The notes beneath the pieces were generated by a model. That model was not told where the DNA came from. It was given only the letters and a program-made list of their open reading frames with translations, and did not search any database. From the NCBI GenBank assembly GCA_017625835.1, contig JAGAKF010000083.1, forward strand, positions 1 through 38,386: 38,386 nt of DNA, written 5' to 3'. Position numbers and translations under genes: made by a program. Source of the DNA: Clostridia bacterium. GTDB taxonomy: Bacteria > Bacillota > Clostridia > Oscillospirales > Acutalibacteraceae. Shown in pieces: positions 10,723 to 36,811 of the stretch. Within the stretch, counting starts at the first letter, position 1. Each line of letters opens with the position of its first letter.

Positions 10723-10765
10723 ATGTGCATAAAAGCAAGCAGAAATGCATATTGGAGGTTTTATT

Positions 10766-11995
10766 ATGAATAAAGAAAACATAAAGAAGGTTGTCCTTGC
10801 TTACTCAGGCGGTCTTGACACATCAATCATCATCCCTTGGCTCAAGGAAAACTACAACAACTGTGAAGTTATCGCAGTTTCAGGTAACGTTGGTCAGGCA
10901 AGCGAGCTTGAAGGCCTTGAAGAAAAGGCTATCAAGACAGGTGCTTCAAAGATTTATATTGAAGACCTTACAAAGGAATTCCTTGAGGAGTATGTTTTCC
11001 CCGGAATCCAGGCAGGAGCAAAGTATGAGGACTATCTCCTTGGTACAGCTTATGCACGTCCTCCCATTGCAAAGAGAATCGCTGAAATCGCAATCGCTGA
11101 AGGCGCAGATGCTATCTGCCACGGTTGCACAGGTAAGGGTAACGACCAGGTAAGATTCGAGCTTGCTATCAAGGCTTTTGCTCCTGATATGCCGATCATC
11201 GCTCCTTGGAGAGAGTGGGATATCAAGTCACGTGAAGAAGAAATCGAATACGCTGAGGCACACAATGTTCCTCTTAAGATAAGCCGTGAGACAAACTACT
11301 CAAAGGATAAGAACATCTGGCACCTTTCACACGAAGGTCTCGATCTTGAAGATCCTGCAAACGAGCCTCTTTACAATAAGGAAGGCTTCCTTGAGATGGG
11401 CGTTTCTCCCGAAATGGCTCCCGACGTACCGACATACGTTACAATCCACTTCGAAAAGGGTGTTCCGACAGCTGTTGACGGCGTTGAGATGGACGCAGTT
11501 GCACTCGTTGAGAAGCTTAATGAGCTCGGCGGCGCAAACGGTATCGGTCTTCTTGATATCGTTGAGAACAGACTCGTTGGTATGAAATGCCGTGGTGTAT
11601 ATGAGACACCGGGCGGAGCAATCCTCTACAAGGCTCACGAGGTTCTTGAAACAATCACACTCGATAAGGAAACAGCACACTACAAGGCAATCGTTGCTCA
11701 GAAGCTTGCTGAGCTCACATACAACGCACAGTGGTACACACCGCTTACAGAAGCTATCCTTGCTTTTGTTAAGGAAACACAGAAGACAGTTACAGGTGAC
11801 GTTAAGCTTAAGCTCTACAAGGGAAATATGATCAACGCAAGCGTTACATCACCGTTCTCACTCTACGATCCTGAGATCGCAACATTCGACGAGGACAACG
11901 TTTACAATCAGGCTGATTCAGCAGGATTTATTAACCTCTACGGTCTTCCCATCAAGGTTTACGCTAAGATGAAGGCTAAGAACAACCTCAAATAA
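10766..11995 (+). CDS. argG: Argininosuccinate synthase
   Basis: Joins citrulline and aspartate with ATP to give argininosuccinate in arginine synthesis. The N-type ATP pyrophosphatase P-loop AYSGGLDTS is at residues 12-20. [13 protein letters not shown] and SREEEIEYA segments are typical of the family, as is the 409-residue length. I chose the ATG at 10766 because GGAGG lies 7 bases upstream; the in-frame ATG at 10745 lacks a ribosome site. It is the first gene of an arginine/carbamoyl-phosphate block read from an ARG-box-like promoter, with argH 25 bp downstream. Confidence 0.97.
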
Positions 11996-12020: not shown

Positions 12021-13394
12021 ATGGAAAAAATGTGGGCAGGAAGATTCCAGAAGGCTCTTGATAAAGAGGCTGACGACTTTAACTCTTCCATTCATTTTGA
12101 CTGCAAAATGTATAAGCAGGATATCACAGGTTCAATGAAGCATGCGGCAATGCTCGCAATGCAGAACATCATCAGCGATGATGACTGTGACAAGATCACT
12201 GCGGGTCTTCAGTCTATTCTTGACGACCTTAACAACGGCGATCTTGCTTTTGATATGGACGCTGAAGATATTCATATGTTTGTTGAGTCCGAGCTTACAA
12301 AGCGTATCGGCGACGTAGGCAAGAGACTTCATACGGCAAGAAGCCGCAACGACCAGGTTGCGGTGGATATCCGTCTTTTCCTTCGCGACGAAACAAACGA
12401 GATTATCGTCCTTGTTAAAAAGCTTCTTGCGGCTATACTTGTGCAGGCAAAGGCTCACAAAACTTCCATTTTGCCGGGATATACTCATCTCCAGAGAGCG
12501 CAGCCGATTACATTTGCGCACCATCTTCTTGCTTATGCAATGATGTTCACACGTGATATCGGCAGACTTGAAGACGCTCTTAAGAGAATGAACTATTCTC
12601 CACTCGGCTCATGTGCTCTTTCGGGCACAACATATAATACAAACCGTGAATTCGTTGCTGAGGCCCTCGGCTTTGACGGCATTACTCTTAACAGTATTGA
12701 CGGCGTTTCTGACCGTGATTTCTGCGTTGAACTTATGAGTGCATATTCAACAATTATGATGCACCTTTCACGTTTTTCGGAAGAAATCATTCTCTGGTCA
12801 AGCTGGGAATTCAAGTTCATCGAGCTTGACGACAGCTACACAACGGGCTCAAGCATTATGCCGCAGAAAAAGAATCCCGATATGGCAGAGCTTGTCCGCG
12901 GTAAAACAGGACGCGTTTACGGCAACCTTTTCACAATGCTTACGGTGCTCAAGGGTATTCCTCTTGCATACAACAAGGATATGCAGGAAGACAAGGAATG
13001 CATCTTTGACAGCATTGACACTTTGAAGCAGTGCCTTAAGGTGTTTGCGCCAATGATTGAAACAATGACAGTGCTTACAGACAATATGTATTCTGCGGCA
13101 CAGAAAGGTTTCATCAACGCAACTGACCTTGCAGATTATCTCACAAAGAAGGGTATGCCTTTCAGAAGTGCGTACAAAATCGTTGGTCAGATTGTTGCAT
13201 TTTGCATAAATAATAATTTAGTGCTTGAAACAATGTCGCTCGAGGATTATAATAAATACAGTGACCTTTTTGAAGAGGATCTTTACAAAGAGATCTCTCT
13301 TGAAACCTGCGTTTCCAAAAGAATTTCTGCAGGTGGTACAGGTATTGAATCCGTTGAGAAGCAGATCGAATACGTAAGCACTTTTATCGACTGA
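12021..13394 (+). CDS. argH: Argininosuccinate lyase
   Basis: Splits argininosuccinate into arginine and fumarate. Fumarase/aspartase superfamily signature GSSIMPQKKNPD is at residues 276-287, including the catalytic Ser278. HTARSRNDQ (104-112) and GYTHLQ (153-158) are the other two conserved regions. Its 457 residues are normal. CGGAGA precedes the ATG. It follows argG closely and is separated from argF by a hairpin that could lower readthrough. Confidence 0.97.
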   Translation: MEKMWAGRFQKALDKEADDFNSSIHFDCKMYKQDITGSMKHAAMLAMQNIISDDDCDKITAGLQSILDDLNNGDLAFDMDAEDIHMFVESELTKRIGDVGKRLHTARSRNDQVAVDIRLFLRDETNEIIVLVKKLLAAILVQAKAHKTSILPGYTHLQRAQPITFAHHLLAYAMMFTRDIGRLEDALKRMNYSPLGSCALSGTTYNTNREFVAEALGFDGITLNSIDGVSDRDFCVELMSAYSTIMMHLSRFSEEIILWSSWEFKFIELDDSYTTGSSIMPQKKNPDMAELVRGKTGRVYGNLFTMLTVLKGIPLAYNKDMQEDKECIFDSIDTLKQCLKVFAPMIETMTVLTDNMYSAAQKGFINATDLADYLTKKGMPFRSAYKIVGQIVAFCINNNLVLETMSLEDYNKYSDLFEEDLYKEISLETCVSKRISAGGTGIESVEKQIEYVSTFID

Positions 13395-13460: not shown

Positions 13461-14444
13461 ATGGTAGATTTAAAAGGCAGGGATTTCTTGAAATTGCTCG
13501 ATTTTACGAGTGAAGAAATCGGTTATCTTATTGACCTTGCCGCAGATTTGAAAGCAAAGAAGAAGGCAGGCATACCGCACAGAATCCATGAGGGCAAGAA
13601 CATCGCTCTCATTTTTGAAAAGACAAGTACAAGAACACGCTGCAGCTTTGAAGTTGCTGCAAGCGACCTCGGTATGGGCTCAACATACCTCGCTGAAGGC
13701 TCACAGATCGGCAAAAAGGAAAGCATTGCAGACACAGCGAGAGTTCTTGCAGGAATGTTTGACGGAATTGAGTACAGAGGCTACGGCCAGGAGCTTGTTG
13801 AAGAGCTTGCAAAGTATTCGAAGGTTCCCGTATGGAACGGCCTTACAAACGAATTCCACCCGACTCAGATTTTAGCCGACTTCCTTACAATCAAGGAGCA
13901 TTTCGGTTACCTTAAAGGTATAAATTTTGTTTATATGGGCGACGCCCGTTATAATATGGGTAATTCACTCATGGTAGGTTGCGCAAAGATGGGACTTAAC
14001 TTTACCGCTGCCGCACCTGCAAAGTATTTCCCGGACAAGGCTCTTGTTGACGAGTGCCTTGAAATCGCAAAAGAAACAGGCTCGGTAATCCGCTTCTGTG
14101 AAGACCCGATTGAAGCTGTCAAGGATGCAAACGTAATCTACACTGACGTATGGGTTTCAATGGGTGAACCGATCGAAGTATGGCAGGAGAGAATCGACGA
14201 CCTTGCACCTTATCAGGTTAACAAGACTCTTATGGACGCGGCGGCAGAAAATGTAGTTTTCATGCACTGTCTTCCCGCTTACCACGACCATAAGACAGCA
14301 GTCGGTAAGGAAATGGGCGAAAAATTCGGTCGCGATGCAATGGAAGTTACCGACGAAGTTTTTGAAAGTGAAAAATCCATTGTTTTTGAAGAAGCTGAAA
14401 ACAGGATGCACACAATAAAAGCTGTTATGGCAGCAACTCTTTGA
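13461..14444 (+). CDS. argF: Ornithine carbamoyltransferase
   Basis: Transfers carbamoyl phosphate to ornithine to give citrulline. The carbamoyl-phosphate site STRTR is at residues 56-60. HPTQ in the middle and HCLPA in the C-terminal half are the OTCase substrate motifs. Its 327 residues are typical. TTAGGAGGA precedes the ATG. carA starts 13 bp downstream. The enzyme therefore sits directly beside the enzyme that makes its carbamoyl phosphate, which supports an anabolic role over the arginine-deiminase (arcB) role. Confidence 0.95.
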
Positions 14445-14457
14445 GGGAGGTTTTTGG

Positions 14458-15522
14458 ATGAAAAAAGTTTACATTGTTCTTGAAGACGGCCACGTTTTTG
14501 AGGGTGAAAGATTCGGTGCTGAAGGCGAGGCAATCGGCGAATTCGTATTCACCACAGGAATGTGCGGTTACGTTGAAACTCTTACAGACCCCACTTACTA
14601 CGGCCAGATAGTAATGCATACTTTCCCGCTTATCGGAAACTACGGCATTATGGAAGAAGACTTTGAAAGTGATAAGTCATACATCAAGGCTTACGTTGTA
14701 CGTGAGTGGTGTGATGCTCCCTCTAATTTCAGATGTCAGTACACTCTTGACGAATATCTTAAAAAGCAGGGTATTGTCGGAGTCTGCGGCGTTGATACAC
14801 GCGAAATCACGCGAGTTATCCGTGATAACGGTGTTATGAACGCTATCATTACAGAGGATCCGTCAAAGGTTGATTTTAACGCGCTCAAAGCTTATAAACT
14901 TACAGATGCAGTTGCAACTGTAAGCTGTAAGGAAAAGTACACGGTTGAATCCGATGCGCACAGCAAGAAGGTTACACTCGTTGACTTCGGTAAGACAAAG
15001 AGCATTATCGCTGAGCTTACAAAGCGCGGATGTGACGTAACTGTTGTACCGTACAACACATCGGCTGAGGAAATCCTTGCTCTCGGTGCTGACGGAATCG
15101 TGCTTTCAAACGGTCCTGCAGACCCGAAGGATAATATGGCAGCCGTTGAGGAAATCAAAAAGCTTATCGGCAAGGCACCGATGCTCGGCATATGCCTCGG
15201 TCATCAACTTGCAGCTCTCGCTCTCGGCGGTGAAACAGTGAAGCTTCAGTATGGTCACCGCGGTGCAAACCAGCCGGTTAAGAGCACAGAATCAGGCAAG
15301 ACTTACATCACAAGCCAGAACCACGGCTACGAAGTTGATGCAAAGAGTCTTGACTGCGGATTCGAAAGCTTTATAAACGCAAACGACGGTACCTGCGAAG
15401 GTATGAAATATGCGGACAAGCTCCTTGTAACAACCCAGTTCCATCCGGAAGCTTGTATCAGCCCCTTGAATACACACTACGTTTATGACGAATTTATCAC
15501 TATGATGGGAGGTAATGACTGA
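14458..15522 (+). CDS. carA: Carbamoyl-phosphate synthase small (glutaminase) subunit
   Basis: Class I glutamine amidotransferase that supplies ammonia to CarB. The N-terminal CarA-specific domain is about residues 1-150 and the amidotransferase domain about 170-354. The nucleophile is Cys246 in GICLGHQ; His329 and Glu331 (QFHPE) complete the triad. GGGAGG lies 8 bases before the ATG. The stop TGA overlaps the carB ATG by one base (TGATG), so the subunits are translationally coupled. It lies within the arginine block, so it may be the arginine-responsive synthase. Whether a second carAB for pyrimidines exists elsewhere cannot be seen. Confidence 0.96.
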   Translation: MKKVYIVLEDGHVFEGERFGAEGEAIGEFVFTTGMCGYVETLTDPTYYGQIVMHTFPLIGNYGIMEEDFESDKSYIKAYVVREWCDAPSNFRCQYTLDEYLKKQGIVGVCGVDTREITRVIRDNGVMNAIITEDPSKVDFNALKAYKLTDAVATVSCKEKYTVESDAHSKKVTLVDFGKTKSIIAELTKRGCDVTVVPYNTSAEEILALGADGIVLSNGPADPKDNMAAVEEIKKLIGKAPMLGICLGHQLAALALGGETVKLQYGHRGANQPVKSTESGKTYITSQNHGYEVDAKSLDCGFESFINANDGTCEGMKYADKLLVTTQFHPEACISPLNTHYVYDEFITMMGGND

Positions 15523-18500
15523 TGCCGCTTAATAAAGATATAAAGAAGGTACTTGTTATCGGTTCAGGTCCGATTGTTATCGGTCAGGCTGCTGAGTTTG
15601 ACTACGCAGGCGCACAGGCTTGCCGCGTTCTTAAGGACGCAGGCCTTGATGTTGTTCTTGTTAACTCAAACCCCGCAACAATTATGACTGACAGCGCACT
15701 TGCAAACGAGATTTACCTCGAACCTCTCACAGTTGAAACAGTAAAGAGAATTATCGAAAAAGAGCGTCCCGACTCAATTCTTGCAGGCCTCGGCGGACAG
15801 ACAGGTCTTACGATCGCTATGCAGCTTGCTAAGGACGGCTACCTTGAGAAGATGGGTGTTAAGCTCCTCGGTACAAACGCTGAGGCTATCGACAAGGCTG
15901 AGGACAGACAGATGTTCCGTGACACGATGCTTAAAATTGGTCAGCCCTGTATCCCGTCGGATATCGCAACAACAGTTGACCGTGCTGCTGAAATCGCAGA
16001 AGAGATCGGTTATCCTGTAATCCTTCGTCCCGCGTTCACACTCGGCGGTGCAGGTGGCGGTGTTGCTTACAATGAAAAGGAACTCCGTGTTATCACATAC
16101 AACGGACTTATGCTTTCTCCGATTACTCAGGTGCTTGTTGAAAAGTATATCGCAGGTTGGAAAGAGATTGAGTTCGAAGTAATGCGCGACAGCGCAGGTA
16201 ACGCAATCGCAATCTGCTCAATGGAAAACATCGACCCCGTTGGTGTTCATACAGGTGACAGTATTGTTGTTGCTCCTGCAATGACACTCTCCGACAAGGA
16301 ATATCAGATGCTTCGTGCAGCATCTCTTGATATCATCACAGAGCTTGGCATCGAAGGCGGATGTAACTGTCAGTTTGCTCTTGATCCTGAAAGCTTTGAA
16401 TATGCTGTTATCGAGGTTAACCCCCGAGTTTCCCGTTCATCAGCTCTTGCTTCAAAGGCTACAGGTTTCCCGATTGCAAAGGTTACTTCAAAGATCGCCC
16501 TCGGCTATACACTTGACGAAATCAGAAACGATATAACAGGAAAAACTTGTGCTTGCTTCGAGCCGACAGTTGACTACTGCGTTGTTAAATTCCCGAAGTG
16601 GCCGTTTGACAAGTTCGTTTCAACAAGCCGTAAGCTCGGCACACAGATGAAGGCAACCGGTGAGGTTATGGCAATCGCTCCTTCATTCGAGATGGCAATT
16701 ATGAAGGCTGTCCGCGGTGCTGAAATCGGTCTTGACACTCTTAATTACAACAAATTCCCTGAGAATATGGATGTTATCGAAAAGCTCCATGACCAGGACG
16801 ATATAAGACTTTTCACAGTTTTCAAGGCTCTTAAAGAGGGCGTAAGCATTGATGAAATCCACTCAATCACAATGATTGATGAATGGTTCCTTTCAAAGCT
16901 CAAGAATCTTGCTGACTACGAAAAAATGCTTCAGAGCGGTAATCTTGACGAAGATTACTACATCAAGGGCAAGAAATACGGCTACAAGGATTCAACAATT
17001 CTTAAGTATGCAGGCAAGCTTCCAGAGAAGACTCTTGACGCTGTTTACAAGATGGTTGACACCTGCGGCGCAGAGTTCAAGGCTGAAACACCGTATTTCT
17101 ACTCAACATACGACACAGAATGTGAATCAAGAGAAATCAAACGCGGTGAGAAGGAGACAATCATCGTTCTCGGTTCAGGTCCGATCCGTATCGGTCAGGG
17201 TATCGAGTTTGACTACTCATCAGTTCACTGCGTATGGACTCTTAAAGAGCTCGGATATGAAGTTGTTATTATCAACAACAACCCCGAAACTGTTTCAACA
17301 GACTTTGATACTGCCGACAGACTTTATTTCGAACCCCTCAACGATGAGGATGTTATGAATGTTATTAAGGTTGAAAATCCCGTTGGTGTCGTTGTTGCTT
17401 TCGGCGGTCAGACAGCTATCAAGCTTACAAAGTTCCTTGACGAAAACGGAATCAAAATTCTTGGTACATCTGCTGAGGGTATCGACATCGCAGAAGACAG
17501 AGAACGTTTTGATGCACTCCTTGAATCATTCAATATCAAGAGACCGCAGGGTCTTACAGTTATGAATGTTGACGAGGCTCTCAAGGCTGCTGACGAGCTT
17601 GGTTATCCCGTTCTTCTCCGTCCGTCATACGTTATCGGCGGTCAGAATATGACAATCGCGTACAACGAAACGGACGTACGTATCTATATGGATATCATCC
17701 TCGCTCAGAAGATCGAAAACCCCGTTCTTGTTGACCAGTATCTTATGGGTGATGAGCTCGAAGTTGACGTTATATCTGACGGCAAGGATGTTCTTATCCC
17801 GGGTGTTATGGAGCACGTTGAACGTGCAGGTGTTCACTCAGGTGACTCTATCGCAGTTTATCCTCCGTACAATATTCCTGACAAGATGCTTGACAAGGTT
17901 ATCGAATGTTCAACAAACCTTGCTCTTGCGCTCGGTACAAAGGGTCTTGTTAATATTCAGTATCTTATCTTCCGTAACGAGCTTTATGTTATCGAGGTTA
18001 ACCCGCGTGCTTCACGTACAATTCCTTACATCAGTAAGGTGACGGGCGTTCCGATGGTTGAGCTTGCAACGAAGGTTATGACAGGCACTCCGCTTAAGGA
18101 GCTCGGCTACGGCACAGGTCTTTACAAGATTCCGCCGTACTTTGCAATCAAGGTTCCCGTATTCTCATTTGAGAAGCTCAGCGATATCAACTCAGAGCTT
18201 GGTCCCGAGATGAAATCAACAGGCGAAGTTCTCGGTATCGGCAGAACTCTCAATGAAGCACTCTTCAAGGGTCTTGTTTCTGCAGGATTCAAGGTTGGTC
18301 TTGAAAGTACATACCACGACAAGAAGTACAACGCAGGCGTTCTCATCAGCGTTCACGATAAGGACAAGCCCGAAATCGTTGGTATTGCGAAGAAATTTGC
18401 AGACCTCGGTCTTAAGATTTACTCAACTGCAAAGACAGGCGTAGGCCTCCGTGCAGCAGGTATTGAGGTTGAAACAATCGGTGACTTCGAGGATTGCAGT

Positions 18501-19574
18501 GCTGTTCTTGATGTTCTTGAAACAGGTAAGATTGACTACATCGTATATACCGGTTCAACAAAGCAGGCAACAATCCAGAACTTTATCAAGGTTCACAGAC
18601 GTGCTGTCCAGCTCTCAATCTGCACCCTTACTTCTCTTGACACAGCAAACGCACTCTGCGACATTCTCGCAAGCCGTTTCACACAGAGAAACACAGAACT
18701 TGTTGATATCAACAATCTCCGTGAGACAAAGATGCAGCTCAAGTTCACAAAAATGCAGGCAACAGGTAACGACGATATCTACTTCAACAATTTCTGCAAG
18801 ATTATTCCGTCCCCTGAATCACTCACAGTTAACTTCACAGATCGCCATTTCGGTATCGGTGCAGACGGTGTTGTTCTTCTTGAAAGCTCAGACATCGCAG
18901 ATGCAAAAATGGTAGTTTACAATAACGACGGTACACAGACGCGTATGGCTGCAAACAGTATCCGCTGTGCTGCAAAGTACCTCTACGATAACGGCATTGT
19001 TCCGAAGACAAATATGACAATCGAAACAAACTGCGGTGTTATGAAGGTTAAGCTTTATACATTCAACGGTGAGGTTCGTTCCGCTACTGTTGATATCGGT
19101 AAGCCGGACTTCAATCCCGCAAGCATCCCGATGAACATTGATGCAGAAAATGCACTCGGTTACGAAGCTGAAATTGACGGTGAGAAGCATATTCTCAACT
19201 GCGTATCTGTAGGTAACCCACATTGTATCGTATTCAGAGACGATATCGACTCAGTAAACCTCAACGAGTTCGGTGATATGATCAGAAACTCTGACCTTCT
19301 TCCCGAGTACATCAACACAGGCGTTGCACGAGTTATTGATAAAAACACAATCAAGCTCAGATGCTATGAGCGTGCAGTCAACGGCGAAAGCCTCAGCTGC
19401 GGTGCTTCTGCGGCGGCTTGCGTTGTTGTTGCAACAGAGCTCGGAATGTGTAAGAAGGGCGAGGATATCACGGTTAAGATGCCGGGCGGTGACCTCGTAA
19501 TCACTTACACGGACGAAACAATTCTTGTAAACGGTGACACACACAAGGTTTACGAAGGTGTTGTAGAGTATTAA
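15522..19574 (+). CDS. carB: Carbamoyl-phosphate synthase large subunit fused to a DapF-like domain
   Basis: A single 1350-residue frame. Residues 1-1070 form a complete CarB: two duplicated ATP-grasp synthetase halves (each starting with a GSGP...IGQ...EFDY segment, near residues 10 and 550) and the C-terminal MGS-like allosteric domain to about 1060. Residue 1071 is a Met, and 1071-1350 is a full-length diaminopimelate-epimerase-like domain (280 residues, the usual DapF length). It has GND (1082-1084), DRHFGIGADG, VGNPH, NTGVARV and YER motifs. The second catalytic Cys is present (Cys1293, SCGAS). The first is Ala1143 (MAANSIRC in place of the usual CGNG-type motif). There is no linker and no stop between the parts. 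The ATG at 18732 could be an internal start, but only weak GTGAG lies upstream. No frameshift signs are seen. Confidence 0.93.
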   Translation: MPLNKDIKKVLVIGSGPIVIGQAAEFDYAGAQACRVLKDAGLDVVLVNSNPATIMTDSALANEIYLEPLTVETVKRIIEKERPDSILAGLGGQTGLTIAMQLAKDGYLEKMGVKLLGTNAEAIDKAEDRQMFRDTMLKIGQPCIPSDIATTVDRAAEIAEEIGYPVILRPAFTLGGAGGGVAYNEKELRVITYNGLMLSPITQVLVEKYIAGWKEIEFEVMRDSAGNAIAICSMENIDPVGVHTGDSIVVAPAMTLSDKEYQMLRAASLDIITELGIEGGCNCQFALDPESFEYAVIEVNPRVSRSSALASKATGFPIAKVTSKIALGYTLDEIRNDITGKTCACFEPTVDYCVVKFPKWPFDKFVSTSRKLGTQMKATGEVMAIAPSFEMAIMKAVRGAEIGLDTLNYNKFPENMDVIEKLHDQDDIRLFTVFKALKEGVSIDEIHSITMIDEWFLSKLKNLADYEKMLQSGNLDEDYYIKGKKYGYKDSTILKYAGKLPEKTLDAVYKMVDTCGAEFKAETPYFYSTYDTECESREIKRGEKETIIVLGSGPIRIGQGIEFDYSSVHCVWTLKELGYEVVIINNNPETVSTDFDTADRLYFEPLNDEDVMNVIKVENPVGVVVAFGGQTAIKLTKFLDENGIKILGTSAEGIDIAEDRERFDALLESFNIKRPQGLTVMNVDEALKAADELGYPVLLRPSYVIGGQNMTIAYNETDVRIYMDIILAQKIENPVLVDQYLMGDELEVDVISDGKDVLIPGVMEHVERAGVHSGDSIAVYPPYNIPDKMLDKVIECSTNLALALGTKGLVNIQYLIFRNELYVIEVNPRASRTIPYISKVTGVPMVELATKVMTGTPLKELGYGTGLYKIPPYFAIKVPVFSFEKLSDINSELGPEMKSTGEVLGIGRTLNEALFKGLVSAGFKVGLESTYHDKKYNAGVLISVHDKDKPEIVGIAKKFADLGLKIYSTAKTGVGLRAAGIEVETIGDFEDCSAVLDVLETGKIDYIVYTGSTKQATIQNFIKVHRRAVQLSICTLTSLDTANALCDILASRFTQRNTELVDINNLRETKMQLKFTKMQATGNDDIYFNNFCKIIPSPESLTVNFTDRHFGIGADGVVLLESSDIADAKMVVYNNDGTQTRMAANSIRCAAKYLYDNGIVPKTNMTIETNCGVMKVKLYTFNGEVRSATVDIGKPDFNPASIPMNIDAENALGYEAEIDGEKHILNCVSVGNPHCIVFRDDIDSVNLNEFGDMIRNSDLLPEYINTGVARVIDKNTIKLRCYERAVNGESLSCGASAAACVVVATELGMCKKGEDITVKMPGGDLVITYTDETILVNGDTHKVYEGVVEY
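18732..19574 (+). other. DapF-like domain of the CarB fusion
   Basis: This sub-region is given separately because it would be a stand-alone gene in most genomes. Diaminopimelate epimerase converts LL- to meso-diaminopimelate with two cysteines. Here the first is alanine (domain position 73) and the second cysteine is kept (position 223), while the Asn, Asp, Glu-Arg and GNPH substrate residues are largely kept. Cys79, six residues after the lost one, is the only nearby thiol. It could be an inactive regulatory module, an epimerase with altered chemistry, or part of a subfamily I do not recognise. Confidence 0.85.
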
Positions 19575-19589
19575 TATCAAATAATAATC

Positions 19590-19621
19590 AAAGGCTGTCG
19601 CTTATGCGGCAGCCTTTTTCT
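19590..19621. terminator. Bidirectional terminator after carB-dapF
   Basis: AAAGGCTGTCGC, a TTAT loop and GCGGCAGCCTTT form a 12-bp stem with one G-T pair, followed by TTTTC on the plus strand. It is shared with the convergent DUF11 gene. The stem word is nearly the same as in the terminator at 30191. Confidence 0.9.
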
Positions 19622-20600: not shown

Positions 20601-20610
20601 TCACTTAATA

Positions 20611-20856
20611 GCAATGACGAAGAGGGCAGAAGTGTCAGTTTCAAGAGAGTCGGCGGGTGGTGTGAGCCGATAACGAGAGCTTCAGATGTCTATGGCTTCC
20701 GAGCTGAAAGTCTGAAACTAAGTAGGGCTTTTCGTCTTACCGCGTTAAGGTATAGGGCTTGTCAGAGTCTAAAGGTGGCAGTTTTTACTGCAATTTGAGT
20801 GGTACCGCGGGTATATTTCCCGTCTCAAAGTTCTTGCTTTGGGACGGTTTTTATTT
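20611..20856 (+). promoter_or_regulatory. T-box leader, methionine specifier
   Basis: Stem I begins near 20611 and shows GAGAGT...GGGTGGTGTGAGCC typical of its distal part. GAAG (20619-20622) can pair with CTTC (20696-20699), placing ATG (20692-20694) at the specifier position followed by a purine; a second ATG lies at 20686. Either way the codon is Met. The T-box word TGGTACCGCGG is at 20800-20810. Its TGGT pairs with an ACCA tRNA end, fitting the A73 of tRNA-Met. TTGAG and CTCAA frame the antiterminator. Uncharged tRNA-Met is expected to promote readthrough. With it, the 395-bp gap 20477-20871 is explained. Confidence 0.93.
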
Positions 20857-20857
20857 T
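20819..20857 (+). terminator. T-box-controlled terminator
   Basis: CCGTCTCAAAG and CTTTGGGACGG form an 11-bp stem (20819-20847) followed by TTTTTATTTTT. Its 5' arm overlaps the antiterminator, as expected for transcriptional control. Confidence 0.9.
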
Positions 20858-20871
20858 TAGGAGGTAATATT

Positions 20872-22161
20872 ATGAGCGATTTAAGAATTGAAACCAAATG
20901 CGTTCAGGGCGGCTATACACCGGGCAACGGTGAACCCCGTCAGATTCCGATTATTCAGAGCACAACTTTCAAATATGCTACAAGCGAAGATATGGGTAAG
21001 CTTTTTGACCTTGAGGCAGAAGGATATTTCTACACAAGACTTCAGAACCCGACAAACGATGCAGTTGCAAGAAAAATCTGCGAGCTTGAAGGCGGTACAG
21101 CAGCAATGCTTACTTCTTCAGGTCAGGCAGCTTCTTTCTACGCTGTTTTTAATATTGCATCTTGTGGTGATCACGTTGTAGCATCTTCAACAATCTACGG
21201 CGGAACGTATAACCTCTTCGCAGTCACAATGAAGAGAATGGGTATTGACTTTACTTTCGTTGAGCCCGACTGTTCTGACGAAGAGCTTGAAGCAGCATTC
21301 AGACCGAACACAAAGGCTGTTTTCGGTGAGACTATCGCAAACCCTGCACTCAACGTTTTTGATATCGAACGTTTTGCAAATGCAGCACATGCTCACGGTG
21401 TCCCTCTTATTATTGACAATACATTTGCAACTCCCGTAAACTGCCGTCCGTTCGAGTGGGGAGCAGACATCGTTACACATTCAACAACAAAGTATATGGA
21501 CGGTCACGGCGCAGGTGTCGGCGGTTGTATAGTTGATTCAGGTAAGTTTGACTGGACAAAATATCCCGACAAATTCCCGGGTCTCTGCACTCCTGATGAC
21601 AGCTATCACGGTGTAACATATACAGAGCGTTTCGGTCTCGCAGGAGCATTTATAACAAAGGCAACAGCACAGCTTATGCGTGACTTCGGTTCAATCCAGT
21701 CTCCGCAGAACGCATTTCTTCTCAATCTCGGCCTTGAAAGCCTTCATGTAAGAATGGCAAGACATTGCGAAAACGGCCTTGCAGTTGCAAAGTTCCTTCA
21801 GTCAAGCGATAAGGTTGATTGGGTAACTTATCCGTCACTTGAGGGTGACAAGTGCTATGACCTTGCACAGAAGTATCTTCCGAACGGTTCCTGTGGCGTT
21901 GTAAGCTTCGGCCTCAAGGGTGGCAGAGCTGCTGCAGAAACATTTATGAAGAATCTTAAGATTGCCGCAATCGAAACACACGTTGCGGATGCAAGAACTT
22001 GCTGTCTCCATCCGGCAAGCGCAACTCACCGTCAGATGAACGATGAGGAGCTTGCAGCAGCAGGAGTACCTGCAAACCTTGTCCGTTTCTCATGCGGACT
22101 TGAAAGTGCCGAAGATCTTATCGAAGATATCGCTCAGGCACTCAGTAAAGTTGAAGATTAA
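20872..22161 (+). CDS. metY: O-acetylhomoserine sulfhydrylase (PLP-dependent)
   Basis: Cys/Met-metabolism PLP enzyme of 429 residues, predicted to make homocysteine from O-acetylhomoserine and sulfide. The N terminus [10 protein letters not shown]...[10 protein letters not shown] and YTRLQNPT match the family. SGQAAS binds the cofactor phosphate and [11 protein letters not shown] holds the PLP lysine. The insertion-rich 429-residue form suits the sulfhydrylase over cystathionine gamma-synthase (about 380). I chose the ATG at 20872 because AGGAGGT lies 7 bases upstream; an earlier in-frame ATG (20839) lies inside the terminator. It is read under the Met T-box and followed after 13 bp by metA, which makes its substrate. 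Confidence 0.94.
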
Positions 22162-22174
22162 GAGTTGATTATTT

Positions 22175-23092
22175 ATGCCTATTAAAATTCCGAACGAGCT
22201 TCCTGCCGTTAAGGTGCTTAATGAAGAAAATATATTCGTTATGACGGAAACCCGAGCAATAACGCAGGATATCCGTCCGCTGAAGATTTTGCTTCTTAAC
22301 CTTATGCCTAAGAAGATTGAAACCGAAACACAGTTCGCGCGTCTTCTCGGTAACTCTCCGTTGCAGGTTGAGCTCGAGCTTATCCATACAAAGTCTCATA
22401 AATCAAAGCATACTTCGGCAGAGCATCTGCTGACATTCTACAAGACTTTTGAAGAAATCAAACATAAAAAGTATGACGGAATGATAATCACGGGTGCCCC
22501 CGTTGAACTTATGGAATTTGAAGAAGTTGAATATTGGGAAGAGCTTTGCGAGATTATGGAATGGAGCAAGAAGCACGTTACAAGTACATTCCATATCTGT
22601 TGGGGCGCTCAGGCGGGACTTTATTACCACTTCGGAATCAATAAATTCCGTCTTGACAAAAAGATTTCAGGTGTTTATCCTCATACGGTGGATTATAAAC
22701 GTTCGATTCTTTTCCGCGGATTTGACGACGTGTTTATGGTACCGCAGTCGAGGTATACAAGCGTCGTCCGTGAAGAGATTGAAAAAGATGACAGGCTTAA
22801 AATTCTTGCATCTTCTGAAGAAACAGGTATTTATGCTGTTTCAACCGAAAACGGTAAGCAGATTTTCATAACCGGTCATTCTGAGTACGATGCTACGACT
22901 CTTCGTGATGAGTATTTCCGTGACAGAGAAAAGGGTCTTGATATTCAGATCCCGAAGAACTATTTCCCCGATGATGACCCCACGAAAATGCCTCTTGCAA
23001 CATGGCGTTCACACGCAAACCTTCTTTTCTCTAACTGGCTGAATTATTTCGTTTATCAGACCACACCGTATGACATTGAAAGTATCGAATAA
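22175..23092 (+). CDS. metA: Homoserine O-acetyltransferase (MetA family)
   Basis: Acylates homoserine, the first committed step to methionine. The 305-residue protein follows the numbering of E. coli MetA: catalytic Cys142 in [10 protein letters not shown], and His235 and Glu237 in GHSEYD. Position 111 is Glu (GAPVE). In MetA enzymes Glu111 gives acetyl-CoA specificity and Gly111 gives succinyl-CoA, so the product here should be O-acetylhomoserine, matching metY. It follows metY by 13 bp with only a weak ribosome site and shares its T-box. A convergent terminator follows. Confidence 0.95.
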
Positions 23093-35806: not shown

Positions 35807-35814
35807 TGTAAAAA

Positions 35815-35909
35815 CCTTATCTTTCGGTTGCACCGCAGGATTTAGCACCTTGCTTAACGCAGGTTGCTGAGCTTCATAGGGCCTGTTCCCTCAGCTACTC
35901 TTAATAAGT
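35815..35909 (-). promoter_or_regulatory. SAM-I (S-box) riboswitch
   Basis: The minus strand shows the S-box core in order: CTTATTAAGAG, GCTGAGGGAACAGGCCC, ATGAAGCTCAGCAACC, AAGGTGCTAAATCC and the closing GATAAG. P1 is CTTAT (35904-35908) with ATAAG (35816-35820). A terminator follows directly, so SAM binding is expected to switch metK off. Confidence 0.96.
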
Positions 35910-35939
35910 GTTGAGCGCTATTTAATTTATTGCGAAGAA

Positions 35940-36657: not shown

Positions 36658-36672
36658 GAATTGAATACATAA

Positions 36673-36793
36673 ATCTTCTCTCATCCGGACTGTACCGTCG
36701 GCTCCGGAATCTCACCGGATCAGCATTTGCTCACGGGCTTATGGATATTTATCCAAACACCGTCGGTGGGGAATTGCACCCCGCCCCGAAGAT
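36673..36793 (-). promoter_or_regulatory. FMN (RFN) riboswitch
   Basis: The minus strand shows the RFN core: ATCTTCGGGGCGGGGTG, CAATTCCCCACCGACGGT, AGCCCGTGAGC, TGATCCGGTGAGATTCCGG, AGCCGACGGTACAGTCCGG and ATGAGAGAAGAT. ATCTTC and GAAGAT close P1. FMN binding is expected to stop ribU transcription at the terminator. With promoters on both sides it accounts for the 334-bp gap 36589-36922. Confidence 0.97.
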
Positions 36794-36811
36794 AACTGTT
36801 CACTTGAAGAC

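Follow-up and report, generated by a model that had tools for sequence, protein, structure and literature searches.

An old in-frame fusion of the carbamoyl-phosphate synthase large subunit to a DapF-like domain in gut Clostridia, with loss of a catalytic cysteine

The stretch of DNA analysed here, which we call the window, is a 38,386-nucleotide stretch (positions 1 to 38,386) of contig JAGAKF010000083.1 of a Clostridia bacterium (assembly GCA_017625835.1, a 2.09 Mb draft in 103 contigs that is 77% complete). It carries an open reading frame, carB::dapF, in which the large subunit of carbamoyl-phosphate synthase (CPSase), CarB, runs directly into a domain resembling the diaminopimelate (DAP) epimerase DapF. 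An earlier note on this DNA had described this in-frame fusion; we found it to be real, with 1350 residues between 15522 and 19574 and no internal stop, and conserved in relatives. Its parts are listed below, the catalytic cysteines (Cys73 and Cys217) being numbered as in the Escherichia coli and Haemophilus influenzae enzymes.

15522..19574, + strand: fused gene carB::dapF, 1350 amino acids, without internal stop
15522..18731, + strand: CarB part, residues 1-1070 (TIGR01369, 1398 bits)
18372..18632, + strand: MGS-like domain of CarB, residues 951-1037 (Pfam PF02142)
18693..18731, + strand: junction segment TELVDINNLRETK; the length from its TELV motif to Phe5 of DapF is near-constant in relatives
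18732..19571, + strand: DapF-like domain, residues 1071-1350 (TIGR00652; sequence matches to DapF in the PDB)
18948..18950, + strand: codon of the first catalytic cysteine position (Cys73), GCT, alanine
19398..19400, + strand: codon of the second catalytic cysteine (Cys217 position), TGC, cysteine kept

Both halves match their families over their full length. The CarB match spans residues 1-1052, the whole length of the family, with 1398 bits against TIGR01369 (cut-off 1027; residues 4-1047) and 1440 bits against PRK05294; the DapF match covers residues 1074-1348 and scores 219.9 bits against TIGR00652 in the whole protein and 225 bits when the domain is scanned alone (cut-off 114.65). Pfam finds both ATP-grasp halves, the oligomerisation domain, an MGS domain that is whole at residues 951-1037, as the earlier note had maintained, and two DAP_epimerase stretches. 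The window protein is thus a CPSase large subunit by its full-length profile match, its complete set of domains and the carA partner directly upstream, and its C-terminal part belongs to the DapF family by homology, its full-length match lying above the curated cut-off; it differs from other CarBs in the 280-residue DapF domain behind MGS and in a replaced MGS loop, described below, that it shares with relatives linked to argF.

No extra linker separates the two parts, in agreement with the earlier note, as unfused sister CarBs stop within a few residues of the same point (locus L124 ends ...VDINTIR). The pattern could be scored in 97 of 110 fused loci: 94 of these have 17 residues between TELV and the conserved DapF phenylalanine, the other three have 24. 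The 13 unmatched loci look alike in their printed sequences. The DapF domain begins with methionine in just 24 of the 97, and translation of two chains from an internal start is unlikely because this methionine is so poorly conserved; within the genus of the window part of the members do have it, and there an internal start may occur.

The fusion is widespread in gut Clostridia and occupies a large group. The closest named records (L003-L009), metagenome-assembled Clostridia from ruminant guts, are 94-97% identical to the window across junction and DapF, and separate congener assemblies read through the junction without a stop. Had close relatives all kept separate genes, the fusion would have been suspect; instead, it is present in 32 of 60 relatives, the window genome counted in (three fused rows end at contig edges, and genome G003 has a frame break inside carB), and in no fewer than 85 of the 197 genomes sampled from the order, each at least 85% complete (a few fused rows end at contig edges). 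Across the class it is found in 32 of 243 genomes (G341 has a frame break, G271 and G241 are cut, and G241, G392 and G396 were not fetched), and across the phylum in 15 of 299, including the single-contig genomes G624 and G647 (16 match at E<=1e-140, G048 through a stand-alone DapF alone). These four sets overlap, with G000 and G054 present in all of them. In L096 (G003) and L279 (G341) the frame breaks divide carB within the fused gene, either through sequencing error or because the gene is broken.

For the origin of the fusion we used trees of the CarB part, which are quick searches with many weakly supported inner branches. In a 60-row tree, the 34 fused rows fall in one clade with support 100, together with the unfused L146; with 140 fused rows the fused clade again has support 100 and L146 inside. 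Ten of the 150 fused loci were left out of this second tree: L247 because its branch is very long, and the other nine because their CarB part has at most 850 residues. Adding 17 more unfused CarBs, so that every full-length unfused copy listed among the 60 relatives was represented, gave support 99 with three unfused rows inside (L146, L303 and L305), and a 50-row tree under a site-mixture model returned the same clade, also with support 99. The whole DapF domain has been lost in two lineages, L146 (G055) and L303 (G038); L305 (G007) is explained by a contig end. The 140 fused CarBs descend from one old fusion.

This old clade rules out a recent stop-codon loss in the species of the window. 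The earlier note had seen in the retained methionine a sign of stop-codon loss, a sign undone by the rarity of that methionine and the age of the fusion; the broader idea, that carB joined a dapF that followed it, is plausible, given that unfused sister CarBs end at about the junction and that carA-carB-dapF-dapL operons of separate genes occur in another lineage. These operons (L131, L132 and L133) hold a second, unfused CarB of another clade and a DapF with both cysteines that falls in a different clade from the fused DapF (in the DapF tree, from which L048 and L049 were left out; records present under two locus ids were dropped as well). These operons had looked like the direct ancestor of the fusion, but their place in other clades makes them a parallel case and rules them out as its parent. 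Six further loci (L253-L258) have a separate dapF close behind carB in the same reading frame with one stop between. Together with the operons of L131-L133, these neighbouring pairs suggest that carB and dapF were probably paired on more than one occasion.

The earlier note had read the added part as a full-length DapF-type fold; the full-length match stands, but the catalytic Cys73 codon is an alanine codon, which that note had missed. The first motif in the window reads A-A-N-S-I-R-C, compared with C-G-N-G/A-x-R-C in most active enzymes, so that one of the two catalytic cysteines of a functional epimerase is present. Stand-alone DapFs in our motif table have both, except rows L048 (masked or truncated, with the first motif alone readable) and L049 (which did not align as DapF). 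In the DapF of C. glutamicum (CgDapF), according to an excerpt of the published work (PMC5296763), changing either cysteine to alanine almost completely abolishes activity, and mutation of any one of eight substrate-contact residues, T223A included, has the same effect. The Cys73-to-alanine change therefore suggests that the window domain most likely no longer epimerises.

This loss is common among the fused proteins. Taking 'intact' to mean only that both cysteines are present, as some intact rows (L243, L245) have other residues at motif positions close by, 45 of all 150 fused loci are intact, 104 lack at least one catalytic cysteine (Cys-less hereafter) and one is undetermined. The 104 fused genomes of the relative and order sets divide into 20 intact, 83 Cys-less and one cut, six further named loci (L011-L015, L017) into five intact and one Cys-less, and 40 further class and phylum loci into 20 intact and 20 not. 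The first cysteine is replaced by Ala, Gly, Ser, Phe or Thr. Among 78 readable cases of its loss in the 104 genomes, the second cysteine is kept in 75 (AC 54, GC 12, FC 5, SC 4, naming the residues at the two positions) and lost as well in three (AN 2, TS 1); the second alone is lost in four of the 104. In one genus (L265, L266 and L267, two of them from single-contig genomes) both catalytic cysteines are replaced, by Ser and Ala. On the 140-row tree there are at least 11 changes of active-site state, or 13 losses if loss is irreversible, scored on 138 of the 140 rows; those left out are L250, cut before the second motif and hence undetermined, and L251, cut there too and Cys-less, as it has no first cysteine. 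The repeated loss of a catalytic cysteine with the domain kept offers natural replicates of the conversion of an enzyme to a pseudoenzyme, in which intact and Cys-less fused versions are directly comparable. It also means that annotation calling lysine and DAP pathways by a DapF match alone would wrongly give many such genomes an epimerase.

The genes next to carB::dapF place it in arginine synthesis:

10745..11995, + strand: argG, argininosuccinate synthase, which opens the run of arg genes (NCBIfam PRK00509.1, 570 bits)
12021..13394, + strand: argH, argininosuccinate lyase (TIGR00838, 637 bits)
13461..14444, + strand: argF, ornithine carbamoyltransferase (TIGR00658, 419.5 bits)
14458..15522, + strand: carA, CPSase small subunit (PRK12838.1, 445 bits)
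19590..19617, + strand: terminator-like hairpin of 12 pairs then a T-rich tail, directly after the stop codon (consensus scan)

The end of carA and the start of carB share one base. Terminator-like sites are hardly rarer by chance in this region (12 found, 9.6 expected), the stem at 19590 being among the two longest, and this hairpin is likely the end of the operon. With the arg genes upstream on the same strand and the hairpin just past the stop, carB::dapF very probably closes an arginine operon, argG-argH-argF-carA-carB::dapF, and, being encoded alongside arg genes, the enzyme fits an arginine-dedicated CPSase. We found no second full CarB in the 77% complete genome of the window. Among three unfused CarBs of the order whose neighbours we read, those in G054 and G022 have pyrimidine genes as neighbours; the congener G002 has a second, unfused CarB (L137) that adjoins guaA, a purC-like gene, ddh and the cytidine triphosphate synthase gene pyrG. 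G054 and G002 each have a fused CarB besides the unfused one.

Across the 104 genomes, 51 of the 74 Cys-less loci for which enough sequence was available have argF upstream, and none of 19 intact ones does, whereas dapL lies downstream in none of 70 Cys-less loci and in 6 of 19 intact ones; these counts ignore relatedness, the argF state being essentially one clade. Among the 40 loci added from class and phylum, argF turned up at four of the 20 Cys-less ones and at none of the 20 intact ones, and dapL downstream at none and six, respectively. The 53 argF-linked rows lie in a 61-row clade (60 fused, 1 unfused) that has no intact member. The arginine-operon form of the fusion is thus Cys-less, while dapL stands directly downstream only of the intact form, and of a minority of it; in the Cys-less L248 and L249, dapL lies upstream of carA.

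Some arginine-linked loci depart further from the usual arrangement. In one genus argF is followed by a single protein of 1503-1512 amino acids (L196:1334-5869 (-), L198:2724-7247 (+), L221:3508-8016 (-)) with the CarA N-terminal domain (CPSase_sm_chain), no glutaminase domain, CarB, MGS and a Cys-less DapF, the domains having been read by Pfam on L196 and L198; this is apparently an arginine CPSase of a single chain that uses ammonia. In L205:3224-7243 and L215:3502-7554, argF stands directly before carB::dapF with no carA in the fetched stretch (the rest of these genomes was not searched), and these could possibly be another glutaminase-less CPSase.

The window genome has another route to DAP. 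It encodes Ddh (442 bits), which makes meso-DAP without an epimerase; no DapL above the cut-off and no second DapF were found in what is a 77% complete assembly. The earlier note had also raised the possibility that the fusion coordinates two metabolic fluxes, an idea that finds no support for two live fluxes in this organism, its domain lacking a catalytic cysteine and its genome having Ddh. Over the 104 fused genomes of the relative and order sets, Ddh or a second DapF accompanies 79 of 83 Cys-less domains but 13 of 20 intact ones (Fisher p=8e-4). In the other 7 of the 20 intact genomes the fused domain is the sole DapF found and no Ddh was found, which suggests that there it is probably a working epimerase; two of these seven genomes are incomplete (G036 59%, G028 79%), and DapL is present in G028, G036 and G037, the three of them searched for it.

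The Cys-less domain is nevertheless maintained. In the window genus its pairwise ratio of nonsynonymous to synonymous substitution rates (dN/dS) is 0.020-0.058, compared with 0.014-0.073 for the CarB core and 0.006-0.045 for the MGS domain (nine pairs; a tenth, window-L118, was saturated at synonymous sites). The ratio was 0.014-0.038 in five pairs of intact fused domains, 0.011-0.030 in three pairs of other Cys-less fused domains (with three more saturated) and 0.115 in one stand-alone DapF pair. The domain of the window genus is under purifying selection, much like CarB. As in DapF proper, the recognition sub-site is retained: the residues matching N74, N159, N194, E212 and R213 of CgDapF (also listed as N64, N162, N195, E213 and R214, with the second cysteine as Cys223) each persist in 49-50 of the 50 Cys-less domains linked to argF, and of the other positions the second cysteine is kept in 50, N85 in 48, T223 in 43 and N15 in 39. 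The window domain itself is identical to DapF at 8 of 10 compared catalytic and substrate-contact positions and at 7 of the 8 CgDapF contacts (N15, N74, N85, N159, N194, E212, R213 and T223), the T223 position being Ala. It departs from DapF in the alanines at Cys73 and at this contact Thr, in its fusion to CarB and in its place in an arginine operon.

The MGS domain has changed as well. In E. coli CPSase, ornithine and the uridine and inosine monophosphates act at this domain, as an excerpt of PMC6245113 states. The loop TS.KGR of intact relatives has become YTG.... in 49 of 51 argF-linked rows, YTGSTKQ in the window, and this replacement in the alignment suggests that nucleotide control of the argF-linked CPSases may have changed too; the column matching E. 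coli Lys993 is not reliably alignable.

Building on the computed fusion, its single origin, the loss of the catalytic cysteine, the purifying selection, the arginine-operon context and the presence of Ddh, we propose that a formerly bifunctional CPSase/epimerase now has its DapF part as a non-catalytic ligand-binding, regulatory module, a reading that we judge evenly balanced between right and wrong. The ancestral fused protein would probably have been both CPSase and epimerase. In the lineage of the window, with the gene at the end of the arg operon and the first catalytic cysteine turned to alanine, epimerisation would most likely have gone, and the domain would have been retained as useful inside the CPSase. 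The retained recognition pocket could bind an amino acid with an L-alpha-amino-acid head (LL-DAP, meso-DAP or another), and the state of this ligand could be relayed across the short junction to the MGS domain next to it, so that the supply of carbamoyl phosphate for arginine would be tuned. A pocket able to hold the ligand head without turnover, placed behind MGS, fits an allosteric sensor, and the sensor role that the earlier note had raised is supported to that extent, as a possibility read from sequence. A bolder version, more doubtful and held tentatively, is that the fused epimerase repeatedly became a sensor in CPSases across the phylum, so that diaminopimelate or lysine-family status, and with it peptidoglycan supply, sets carbamoyl-phosphate output for arginine or pyrimidines; if true, it would be a covalent, post-translational link of cell-wall with arginine and pyrimidine metabolism.

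Several observations weigh against this proposal. Epimerase loss, ligand binding, the ligand's identity and allosteric coupling are all steps that we infer. Retention at nine ligand and catalytic sites averages 0.95 compared with 0.83 at 61 other conserved sites in the argF-linked group (p=0.07), and 0.91 compared with 0.86 in the other Cys-less group (p=0.36), meaning that selection could be for the fold rather than the pocket; Ala has moreover replaced the contact Thr (225) and Gly74 in the clade of the window. The link between loss of the cysteine and an alternative DAP route is not significant by sign test on the four independent pairs that supported branches allow; the 13 intact genomes with Ddh or a second DapF show that such a route also accompanies the intact state, and neither was found in four Cys-less genomes (G001, G041, G063 and G220), the congeners of which do have one or the other. 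The search for losses of the whole domain took in just the unfused CarBs from the 60 relatives, so that its count of two has a narrower reach than the count of catalytic losses. Finally, an AlphaFold model of residues 931-1350 (MGS plus DapF, 420 amino acids) has a mean predicted local distance difference test score (pLDDT) of 81 and a predicted template modelling score of 0.63, but across the junction (modelled residues 122-153 of 420) the pLDDT is below 50, which leaves rigid MGS-DapF coupling and the domain geometry undefined by the model.

The main rival to a sensor is a scaffold: the Cys-less domain would be purely structural or protein-binding, serving CPSase dimerisation, stability or docking of ArgF or another partner without any small ligand. 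This is possible, though on balance we doubt it. The DapF of E. coli forms dimers, and its mutant without the two cysteines still acts by protein contact (excerpt of PMC4227774), some fused domains have neither cysteine (AN, TS, SA and GS rows), and a scaffold would equally account for strong purifying selection with contact residues not significantly above other conserved sites; the recognition sub-site and the second cysteine, however, persist in almost every argF-linked domain, and a mere scaffold needs neither.

Catalysis with one cysteine, whether as a slow epimerase or racemase or as a one-base dehydratase or lyase on another amino acid, we consider unlikely. Members of the proline racemase superfamily with one cysteine replaced are known as dehydratases, and the second cysteine is kept in nearly all readable losses of the first; most of the replacements at position 73 (Ala, Gly, Ser, Phe, Thr), however, could not serve as a base, and some lineages keep C73 but lose C217 while others have neither. 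The single Cys-to-Ala mutants of CgDapF are, in the excerpted text of PMC5296763, almost inactive.

Less probable again is a decaying relic, left behind without a role once Ddh or another DapF had taken over the reaction. Most Cys-less domains do co-occur with one of these, and two lineages have shed the domain altogether, but a relic would hardly keep a dN/dS at about the CarB level or a near-constant junction length across scored loci, the Cys-less state spans the 61-row argF-linked clade, and a genome search that read through stops listed none within rows counted as fused. A sequencing or assembly error masking a stop near 18720-18732, conceivable in a fragmented draft, is refuted by the same frame in many separate assemblies, single-contig genomes included.

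The proposed module has partial precedents. CPSase allostery is a textbook case resting on a single C-terminal MGS domain, behind which the fusion adds a second domain of an amino-acid-binding type. The effector of human CPS1 binds in an MGS-type domain. Human CPS1 resembles our proposal in being switched by an amino-acid-like ligand, N-acetylglutamate, bound in its C-terminal region, and differs in having no DapF domain (as excerpted from PMC4655335). The DapF fold can also act on another enzyme without catalysis: in E. coli, a DapF mutated at both cysteines can still bind RppH and stimulate it, although there it is a free, dimeric and otherwise active enzyme, whereas the fused domain is covalently attached and naturally Cys-less (excerpted text of PMC4227774). 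We found no description of a CarB-DapF fusion in titles and abstract starts of the papers listed from the open literature, a search that left subscription papers and domain-architecture listings outside; the architecture may well be listed in domain databases.

We also looked for a lysine riboswitch on the operon. Rfam, run on 25 sources that included 19 fused loci, several with little upstream sequence, gave nothing but transfer RNAs in the fused loci, apart from three leaders in the window, none of them at this operon. These are a T-box leader at 20605-20830 (+), directly upstream of a metY-metA pair (20839-23092), and an S-adenosylmethionine and a flavin mononucleotide riboswitch at 35814-35910 (-) and 36669-36797 (-), respectively.

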